Part shown: positions 22,751 through 25,212 of the stretch, one piece after another
How positions within the stretch are numbered: position 1 is the stretch's first letter
Layout of the letters: every line of letters begins with the position of its first letter
NCBI GenBank assembly: GCA_026986785.1
Contig: JALSNW010000035.1
Span: 1-64,000, forward strand
DNA length: 64,000 nt
Reading direction: 5' to 3'
DNA from: Deltaproteobacteria bacterium
GTDB taxonomy: Bacteria > Desulfobacterota > Dissulfuribacteria > Dissulfuribacterales > QOAL01
Program-made: the position numbers and the translations under genes
Notes under the pieces: model-generated
Seen by the model: the letters and a program-made list of their open reading frames with translations, nothing else
The model's database searches: none
What the model was told of the DNA's origin: nothing

Positions 22751-22795
22751 TTGACAATGCGTTGTTTCTTTATAGTATATAAACAAATATTTATA
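22751..22795 (+). promoter_or_regulatory. Promoter and ArsR-type operator upstream of arsR
   Basis: TTGACA (22751-22756) serves as a -35, with TAGTAT (22773-22778, spacer 16) as a reasonable -10. Overlapping the -10 and start region is an AT-rich inverted repeat with arms ATAAA and TTTAT (22779-22794). An imperfect palindrome of this kind overlapping the promoter is typical for ArsR/SmtB repressors, so autoregulation is likely. This is read by eye and has not been tested. Confidence 0.6.
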
Positions 22796-22852: not shown

Positions 22853-23227
22853 ATGATGTCAGGGAAACGAGTAGAGGACAACAAGGTATTCCTTTCAACG
22901 ATGGCTGGTATTTTCAAGGCTCTTGGGGATCCCAACAGGCTTCGGATAGTATTGTGTCTTTTGGATTCGCAAGACTCTGATCTTACTGTCTCAGAGATTG
23001 TGGAAAGGCTTGGGATATCACAGCCACTTACCTCACACCACCTAAGAGAACTTCGTCATGCCTGTATCGTTCGTCCTGAGCGCAGAGGGCCTTTTATTCA
23101 TTATAGGATTTCTTCCCGCAGTATTATAGGGATATTGAAGGAAGCAGCGATGTTCATGGAAAACTGTAGCAGGGCGGATGAAATGTCCAGCATCATGGCG
23201 CTCAAGGTCTTACAAATAAAGTTATAG
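22853..23227 (+). CDS. ArsR/SmtB-family transcriptional regulator
   Basis: A 124-residue winged-helix repressor. It begins FLSTMAGIFKALGDPNRLRIV, the ArsR entry helix, and the recognition helix is in VSEIVERLGISQPLTSHHLREL, followed by a beta wing (RRGPFIHYRISS). The classic metal-binding ELCVCDL motif is absent. Cysteines occur near residues 39, 67 and 104, so a thiol- or oxyanion-based signal is possible but unknown. Two starts two codons apart or less are available (22853, 22856). It leads the operon containing two apparent selenoprotein genes and a porin. Confidence 0.88.
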   Translation: MMSGKRVEDNKVFLSTMAGIFKALGDPNRLRIVLCLLDSQDSDLTVSEIVERLGISQPLTSHHLRELRHACIVRPERRGPFIHYRISSRSIIGILKEAAMFMENCSRADEMSSIMALKVLQIKL

Positions 23228-23245: not shown

Positions 23246-23692
23246 ATGTCTGAAATTCGAGAGTTGATGAGCAAGATGACTCTGGAAGAGAGCAAGAAGC
23301 TCCTGCTCTATCTTGCCCATGAGATCTTTTCTGTTTTGGACCAGGACGAAAAGAGAGAATTTGTCTTGGAAATGGTTGATAGGACAGGGAAGGACAAGAT
23401 AGGCAGTATGGTACAGTTGTGAATTGCAAAGTGTATGGATGAAGGTATCGATCCACAGAATATGTGTAGACATCTTTATGGGGCAATGGGTATTTTGCGC
23501 GAGCTTTCCAGCCATGCCTCAGAAGAGCTCTTGGTTATCTTTCATGAGTGGCTTGAAGAGGTCGAAAATGAATGCGCTGAGATATGGGAAAAAGAGCCTG
23601 GATGTTCTGTAAAACGTATGGCAAGGCTATTGGGCATACCTGCCCAAGGGGCGGCCTTTATCATGGAAAGAATAAAAGCAGGAGAGGAATAG
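23246..23692 (+). CDS. Uncharacterised protein with in-frame TGA; possible selenoprotein
   Basis: Two short frames (23246-23422 and 23435-23692) lie in the same reading frame, separated only by one TGA at 23420-23422. Read through, they give a 148-residue, mostly helical, acidic protein with the TGA at residue 59, in the context VQL-U-IAKC. GGAGGG precedes the first ATG, whereas the ATG at 23435 has no ribosome-binding site, which favours one gene. A hairpin sits 13 bases after the TGA (see 23436-23455). I do not recognise the family. Alternatives are two small genes with reinitiation, or a nonsense mutation. The next gene, which starts four bases later, shows the same feature much more clearly. 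Confidence 0.55.
23436..23455 (+). promoter_or_regulatory. Candidate bacterial SECIS hairpin (first TGA gene)
   Basis: TGGAT pairs with ATCCA around a ten-base loop that begins with G. The loop starts 18 bases after the TGA at 23420-23422. These values fit the usual bacterial SECIS rules (short stem, small apical loop with an early G, roughly 16-37 bases from UGA), but the stem is only five pairs long and the lower part pairs poorly. It is suggestive, not conclusive. Confidence 0.4.
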
Positions 23693-23695
23693 AAC

Positions 23696-24013
23696 ATGCA
23701 AATCGTCGTGATCATCTGTCAAGACAACCCTGAGATAATCTGGAACTGTTTCAGGCTCGCCAACTTGATGCTCGAAGGCATGGACGAAGTGACAATCTTC
23801 TTGAATGGACCTTCTGTAAGGTATCAATCCCTGGATTCAAAACATTTCCCCATCAAGCACCTGTCCAAGGTCTTTACCCTTTCTGAGGGCAGATTGTTCG
23901 CCTGAGGCAAGTGCCTGGATCTCCACGGTGTGGAGCAAGGACAGCACCAAAGGGCGACCCAGAAGGTACTGTATGAGCTTATAAAAGAAAGCGACACGGT
24001 CTTGACCTTTTGA
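23696..24013 (+). CDS. DsrE-family protein, probable selenoprotein (UxxC)
   Basis: A DsrE/DsrF-like small protein of 105 residues. The N-terminus MQIVVIICQDNPEIIWNCFR is the usual DsrE start and the C-terminus LYELIKESDTVLTF is the usual DsrE end, both in one frame. A TGA at 23903-23905 (residue 70) falls exactly where family members have the first cysteine of their ACGxC motif, giving FA-U-GKCLDL. A perfect SECIS-like hairpin follows. DsrE proteins handle persulfide sulfur through this cysteine; selenocysteine there would make a UxxC redox motif. DsrE-like selenoproteins have been described in environmental surveys. The alternative is a Cys-to-stop pseudogene. The ATG has GGAGAGGA upstream. 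Confidence 0.82.
23911..23941 (+). promoter_or_regulatory. Bacterial SECIS element in the dsrE-like gene
   Basis: CTCCAC (23921-23926) pairs perfectly with GTGGAG (23930-23935), leaving loop GGT, or loop CGGTG if the top pair opens; CCT and AGG outside it can extend the stem. The apical loop begins 21 bases after the TGA at 23903-23905 and has G at its start. This is the expected layout of a bacterial SECIS, the RNA element bound by SelB to insert selenocysteine. Confidence 0.75.
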
Positions 24014-24027
24014 AAGGCATATTATCC

Positions 24028-25212
24028 ATGAAAAAGTCCATGTTTATACTGATTGTTTTTTTCTGTTTCGTAAGTGCCCAGGCTTTGGGTATGGAGGTCT
24101 ATAAAAATGAAAATCTTGCCCTCAAGTCAGGCTTCTGGGGGCAGGTTTGGTATCAGACAATCAGTGATGGACGAGATACGAATGGGGATGGGAGACAGGA
24201 TTCGGGCATATATGATACATTGATACGTCGTGCATATTTTTATGCCAGGGCTGACATTTTTAGGAAGATCGTCGTATTCGCACATCTGGCTGGAGATCGA
24301 ATAGGTCAGGATTATATGAAAAGACGTCCCAGCCTTGGGCTTGGGGCCAATCTCGTGCTTCGGGATGGCTGGATCGCCTTGGATCCCTGGGGTGGCATTT
24401 TCAAGATACAAGTAGGGCGGATGTACGTACCCCTGACTAGGAACTATGGCACGACCTCCACTAAGACCCTGCTCAATTTAGATCTGAACTGGAGTCAGGG
24501 AGGTTTAAGGGGTGGCATATTCTATCCCAGCAAGGTGGGAAGGGACGATGGGATATGTCTCTGGGGCAATATCCTTGAAAAGAGGTTGCAATACCGTTTG
24601 ATGGTAGGCCGAGGTATCTACGATGATGACGTTAATCCTGACGACCATCCCCGTTTTGCAGGAAGGCTCAGTTGGGCCTTTATGGAACCAGAAACCGGCT
24701 GGTTCAACCAAGGTACCTATCTTGGCAAGAAACACATCCTTACCATTGGAATAGGAGCTGACTTCCAGGGGGATCTTCATATCATCTCTCCACAAAGAAA
24801 GCAGGACTATTCGGCATATACTTTTGATATCCATTGGGATCGACCTCTCAATACAGGCCTGGGGGCAGTTACAGTAGAGGCTGCTTTTGTTCATGTGAAC
24901 AATGAACCAAACAGACTGGCCTTTACCCATCTCACCAAGGCGTCAGACGTATCCATTTATTCCCTGAAGGGTGGATATCTTTTGCCCTGGGAGCCTCATT
25001 TGGGAAAGATTCAGCCAAATTTTCATTATGAAAGGATCGACCCTGAAGATGGAGGGGCTACAAACATTTTTGGTGGTGGAATCAATTACTTCTTGAAGGG
25101 CCATGCCAATAAGCTGTCGTTTGATCTCACCTCTGTAGACCAAACAGATGCGACACCAGGGGCTGTGCAGGACCATCTGCTTTTCACCATGCAGCTTGCT
25201 TTGGGATTTTGA
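24028..25212 (+). CDS. Outer-membrane porin
   Basis: A 394-residue exported protein with signal peptide MKKSMFILIVFFCFVSAQAL. Many alternating polar/hydrophobic strands, a GFWGQVWYQTISDGRD start, RAYFYARADI and a terminal aromatic residue (QLALGF) are typical of a 16-strand-type porin. Similar porins belong to the OprO/OprP-like or oxyanion-reduction-operon groups, but the substrate is not readable. ATG 24028 begins the signal peptide directly; an upstream in-frame TTG at 24010 overlaps the previous stop. It is 14 bases after the dsrE-like gene, so it is in the ArsR operon. Confidence 0.8.
   Translation: MKKSMFILIVFFCFVSAQALGMEVYKNENLALKSGFWGQVWYQTISDGRDTNGDGRQDSGIYDTLIRRAYFYARADIFRKIVVFAHLAGDRIGQDYMKRRPSLGLGANLVLRDGWIALDPWGGIFKIQVGRMYVPLTRNYGTTSTKTLLNLDLNWSQGGLRGGIFYPSKVGRDDGICLWGNILEKRLQYRLMVGRGIYDDDVNPDDHPRFAGRLSWAFMEPETGWFNQGTYLGKKHILTIGIGADFQGDLHIISPQRKQDYSAYTFDIHWDRPLNTGLGAVTVEAAFVHVNNEPNRLAFTHLTKASDVSIYSLKGGYLLPWEPHLGKIQPNFHYERIDPEDGGATNIFGGGINYFLKGHANKLSFDLTSVDQTDATPGAVQDHLLFTMQLALGF

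Follow-up and report, generated by a model that had tools for sequence, protein, structure and literature searches.

The 64,000-nucleotide stretch of DNA analysed here (the window), which belongs to a deltaproteobacterial contig, probably encodes a TsoR-TsoA-DsrE cluster with two selenoproteins, TsoA and DsrE; in it DsrE most likely stands in for TsoB, and it is proposed to do so as a chalcogen carrier. Tso denotes a three-selenoprotein operon system with the components TsoA, TsoB, TsoC, TsoX, TsoY and TsoR (Haft and Tolstoy 2025, taken here as cited in the review PMC13188914). The Sec codon of DsrE, its SECIS element, the decoding machinery, the recurrent adjacency of TsoA and DsrE and their exclusivity with TsoB are all supported by comparative sequence data. 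The preliminary description of this DNA had treated the DsrE gene singly; it is better read as the second selenoprotein gene of the cluster. Ordinary annotation shortens both genes, the TsoA-like one as well as DsrE.

Evidence for recoding of the in-frame UGA in the DsrE gene

The DsrE/DsrF-like gene occupies positions 23696-24013 of the plus strand and encodes 105 residues, with Sec at residue 70 (U70). Translation of this segment (MQIVV...SEGRLFAUGKCLDLHGVEQ...LYELIKESDTVLTF) bears out the earlier claim that the frame is interrupted solely by the TGA at 23903-23905, and alignment to Cys-containing DsrE homologues places this codon, as had been proposed, at the first Cys of the ACGxC motif. 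Under the standard code the product would be of only 69 amino acids, and a standard ORF call does end there, which is the truncation that had been foreseen. The terminal stop codon, a second TGA at 24011-24013, is taken as the real end of the gene because relatives end at the same position; in one of them (G001) the corresponding codon is TAA. Homologues remain intact past the in-frame TGA, and differences from the nearest relatives are concentrated at third codon positions after it just as before it, which indicates that coding constraint persists beyond this point.

In the search for relatives, nearly all of the best DsrE matches contained one in-frame TGA, in the same alignment column. A codon scan of the named genomes gave 45 loci readable at the Sec column, with TGA in 37 and TGC or TGT in the other eight (one of them misaligned). 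Independent genomes have TGA, and Cys homologues TGC or TGT, at the position corresponding to 23903. One relative (L026, 1394-1707, in the single-contig genome G023) is split by a frameshift just before its Sec codon, through either an error or decay. The preliminary description had called for a search for selA, selB and selC; the 2.59 Mb, 99% complete genome to which the window belongs encodes SelA (603 bits), SelB (371 bits summed over its frame) and a tRNA-Sec with the anticodon TCA. None of the three findings that the preliminary description had listed as refuting was made.

The hairpin that had been noted downstream of the TGA, with six base pairs and a G-led loop, is found at 23921-23935 on the plus strand (DNA letters CTCCAC-GGT-GTGGAG), where a CUCCAC/GUGGAG stem closes a GGU apical loop and 15 nt separate the UGA from the stem. 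Taken alone this bacterial SECIS-type hairpin is weak evidence, because the same six pairs arise in approximately 10% of codon-usage-weighted synonymous recodings of the window stretch and the fold z-score is only -1.4. It becomes significant through its conservation across TGA loci and its covariation. The hairpin is kept in 37/37 TGA loci, each with seven pairable stem positions, and the loop is GG-led in all but one; in the eight TGC/TGT loci the stem is mostly lost. An alignment of 40 distinct sequences has 99.6% of its stem cells paired, and in four of the seven stem pairs both sides have changed (12 cells). None of 500 shuffles matched this covariation, and controls slid along the alignment dropped to 44-63% paired.

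With the TGA in register, the covarying hairpin and the Sec machinery all in support of the selenocysteine-containing DsrE that had been proposed, the UGA at 23903 is almost certainly decoded as Sec. Two other readings of the codon were weighed. It could have arisen by simple nonsense mutation in a decaying DsrE gene of the Cys type, or be a sequencing error, as the 69-residue ORF call and the frameshift near the same place in L026 might suggest; however, dozens of genomes with full-length frames share the TGA at this codon, the hairpin covaries, and third codon positions dominate the differences past the TGA. A pseudogene or sequencing error was rejected on the conservation of the TGA across independent genomes, and its probability is negligible. 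The presence of in-frame TGA in two adjacent genes might instead reflect a genome-wide change in the code by which UGA specifies one of the canonical amino acids (genetic codes 4 and 25 are examples). Against this, the other surrounding genes are long uninterrupted frames under table 11, SelA, SelB and tRNA-Sec are present, conserved hairpins accompany both TGA sites, and the residue at the DsrE site in homologues is Cys rather than Trp or Gly. Reassignment was also rejected, being very unlikely indeed given the Sec machinery and the Cys/Sec pairing.

Fold of the DsrE protein and the residue at U+3

None of the NCBIfam models fits the window DsrE protein, and the match to the PF02635 profile lies below the family threshold (19.9 bits against a cut-off of 22.7; E 0.00089). 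The AlphaFold2 model has a pLDDT of 97.9. Six PDB entries match it at E <= 0.001, namely YchN, DsrE/DsrF-like proteins and a single conserved protein whose function is unknown. The counterpart of U70 in Escherichia coli YchN is a Cys, and Sec would sit at the active site of the DsrE fold, where a β-strand ends and a helix starts. We infer from the DsrE fold that the protein may handle persulfides, as the preliminary description had proposed.

That description had also placed the Sec in a UxxC redox motif. The window protein does have UGKC, with Cys at U+3, but the motif is not a conserved redox pair, since U+3 is Cys in only 10 of the 37 scanned Sec loci and is Leu in 26 and Ile in one. The residue is Cys in 7/8 of the non-Sec DsrE loci. 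Because the second Cys is Leu in most close Sec relatives, the Sec probably acts alone, and a protein that has Sec seems able to do without the second Cys. Most Sec forms have lost the partner Cys and Cys forms have not, a difference which suggests that with Sec this DsrE subfamily no longer depends on a two-Cys mechanism. In a tree of 56 DsrE sequences, in which many forks are weak, the distribution of Sec and Cys forms needs at least three changes and the window clade is separate from a UGVC subfamily.

The TsoA-like gene and the composition of tso loci

Three bases upstream of the DsrE start ends a TsoA-like selenoprotein gene (23246-23692, plus strand), which the preliminary description had missed. 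It encodes 148 residues with Sec at residue 59, in the motif LUIAKC (family LULAXC), and its frame is interrupted only by the in-frame UGA at 23420-23422; every TsoA locus that is readable at this codon has TGA. A SECIS-type hairpin follows at 23436-23455 (plus strand; seven pairs, one bulged A and an AGGUA loop) and covaries across TsoA loci. The protein scores 132.9 bits to NF045695 against a cut-off of 170 and is treated here as a homologue rather than a called member; its AlphaFold2 model is of low confidence (pLDDT 76, pTM 0.40). Elsewhere, a second, more distant TsoA-like frame of L092 (1286-1627, minus strand) contains a TGA in frame (MVEYUINEC); this locus also has an ArsR-type gene.

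Just before the TsoA-like gene lies an ArsR/SmtB-type regulator gene (22853-23227, plus strand), for which TsoR is the best NCBIfam match and the nearest function-specific model, at 92.5 bits and so below the 115-bit cut-off. One Cys near the expected place raised the idea of a BigR-like dithiol persulfide sensor, which was rejected because the Cys residues are unconserved in ten TsoR sequences; the comparison of these ten gave no conserved Cys set indicating the sensed signal. An AT-rich inverted repeat precedes the gene at 22762-22787, with arms of 10-11 nt placed 3 nt apart, and is a possible operator.

TsoB is a rhodanese/DsbD selenoprotein, and the rhodanese domain, like DsrE, is a sulfur-transferase fold. 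TsoA itself is rare, with a match in 45/395 genomes of the phylum. From these matches 30 TsoA loci were sampled and the 1.5 kb downstream was searched for TsoB. TsoB was found downstream in 18 loci, a DsrE selenoprotein in seven and neither in three, two loci being cut by contig ends; TsoB and DsrE occurred together in 0/30 of the sampled loci. The hypergeometric chance of zero overlap is approximately 1e-4 for the 28 usable loci (C(10,7)/C(28,7)) and 4e-5 in a scripted calculation on 27 loci, relatedness being ignored in both. No TsoB match above the cut-off was obtained in any DsrE-type genome tested, and in the window genome only single-domain matches were seen, of up to 37.6 bits against the cut-off of 805. 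TsoX was also not found in the window genome, although this absence is less firm because the same search matched in no control genome. Replacement of TsoB may be partial, since G312, G272 and G227 keep a DsbD-like relative that has neither the rhodanese half nor any TGA.

DsrE follows TsoA in G000, G145, G190, G312, G272, G407 and G227 and in the loci L092, L099 and L114. The last three, together with L126 (a fragment only), are further DsrE-type loci from named genomes outside the sample of 30. The TsoA-adjacent DsrE genes represent no fewer than two DsrE subfamilies. This favours a functional bond, and a functional link between DsrE and TsoA is judged very probable from these arrangements. 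Some DsrE-type loci also have TsoX and TsoY. In L099 TsoR, TsoA, TsoX, DsrE and TsoY are consecutive. L114 combines a TsoA of the Sec form, a DsrE of the Cys form and a TauE-type exporter. The TsoY frame of L099 (5339-6304) stops at a TGA that corresponds to position 321 of the 366-position profile and may be a Sec codon; if it is one, four selenoprotein genes stand there in a row. In L126 (2742-2980) the DsrE that follows TsoA and TsoX comprises the first 43 residues only and then runs into unrelated sequence, through either an insertion or an assembly join.

In this DsrE subfamily most of the 45 loci are not near TsoA, which shows that DsrE also occurs outside tso loci. When the neighbours of these distant genes were clustered, no shared partner was found. 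Beside the DsrE selenoprotein gene of L061 (9069-10551, in G096) there are two DsrC/TusE-type genes, one recognized by profile and the other clustering with it.

Directly downstream of DsrE in the window is a gene for an ExtI-like outer-membrane porin (24028-25212, plus strand; 109.5 bits, below the 150-bit cut-off). Downstream genes vary between DsrE-type loci (porin, TauE-type exporter or SLAC1-type TsoY), so the substrate and the direction of flow are not fixed by the neighbourhood. A fixed role for the porin was rejected, as it is not common to the other DsrE-type loci, though G001 keeps a truncated remnant. There, a short frame after DsrE (L058, 5453-5786) begins like a signal peptide and continues with the C-terminal third of the ExtI-like porin; it is apparently a deletion remnant of the arrangement seen in the window.

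Possible function and relation to known systems

A working model can be put forward in which the ArsR-type regulator would switch on the TsoA-DsrE pair, and SelB and tRNA-Sec would read the UGA at 23903 with the aid of the hairpin just downstream. DsrE would most likely fill the place of TsoB in this type of locus. Its Sec selenolate could accept sulfane sulfur, or else selenium or tellurium, hold it as a Sec-bound chalcogenide and hand it over, the probable partner in transfer to or from DsrE being TsoA. Since TsoB and DsrE are both sulfur-transferase folds, TsoA probably has a partner that donates or accepts chalcogen. The chalcogen transfer, its direction of flow, TsoA as the partner and the sensed signal are all matters that we infer, and carriage of a chalcogen by the DsrE Sec is offered tentatively, as quite possible. 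An evenly balanced proposition is that tso loci come in two alternative builds. One has TsoB; for the other, a DsrE selenoprotein, frequently accompanied by TsoX and TsoY, would have been recruited more than once from different subfamilies, its Sec being able to carry a chalcogen as a single residue without a resolving Cys.

DsrE could instead be a stand-alone thiol-redox selenoprotein placed beside TsoA for operon convenience only. DsrE-like UxxC selenoproteins are an established family and most members examined here are not next to TsoA, yet the adjacency recurs in about ten genomes and in two DsrE subfamilies, DsrE is never found with TsoB at the sampled TsoA loci, and 27/37 Sec loci have lost the second member of the presumed redox pair, the partner Cys; this reading is thus considered improbable. 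Somewhat less improbable, though still unlikely, is a detoxification role for the cluster, directed at a metal(loid) or oxyanion (selenite, tellurite, arsenic or mercury), with Sec serving as a metal(loid) ligand rather than as a sulfur carrier. The regulator does belong to the ArsR family and TsoY to the SLAC1 family, and ExtI, the best match of the porin, takes its name from selenite/tellurite reduction; moreover, many recently found selenoproteins of such a kind are implicated in metal or metalloid resistance (PMC13188914). However, the porin scores below its family cut-off and is not common to other DsrE-type loci, TsoR lacks a conserved Cys, and TsoB and DsrE are both sulfur-transfer folds.

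The favoured TsoR-TsoA-DsrE cluster can be set beside three known groups of proteins. The window DsrE shares a common fold and the active-site Cys/Sec position with E. coli YchN and the solved DsrE/DsrF-like proteins (1jx7, 3mc3 and 3pnx), but has Sec instead of Cys and a sequence identity of about 20% or less. DsrE-like UxxC selenoproteins (PF02635) were reported from the Sargasso Sea in 2005 and from Desulfovibrio vulgaris in 2006 (PMC1088965, PMC1794560, PMC13188914), and because the family has been known since 2005 the window DsrE by itself only adds a member. It resembles that family in the DsrE/DsrF fold, Sec at the first motif Cys, the downstream SECIS hairpin and deltaproteobacterial hosts. 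It differs in that its clade is distinct from the UGVC...C subfamily, which many of these genomes encode, in that Leu replaces the second Cys in most members of its own subfamily, and in that its gene comes after TsoA.

The Tso selenoproteins have, to our knowledge, no demonstrated function. The window resembles the Tso system in its TsoR-TsoA pair, in-frame TGA and covarying SECIS, and related loci add TsoX and TsoY. Unlike that system, it has DsrE where TsoB stands elsewhere, its genome has no detected TsoB or TsoX, and its TsoA and TsoR score under the NCBIfam cut-offs. The review that cites the Tso work lists DsrE and the Tso proteins separately (PMC13188914), and, as far as Tso is known here through that review, both the disappearance of the partner Cys and a tso locus that has DsrE but no TsoB may be new. 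The mutual exclusion of TsoB and DsrE beside TsoA gives a concrete, testable clue to the function of the Tso system.
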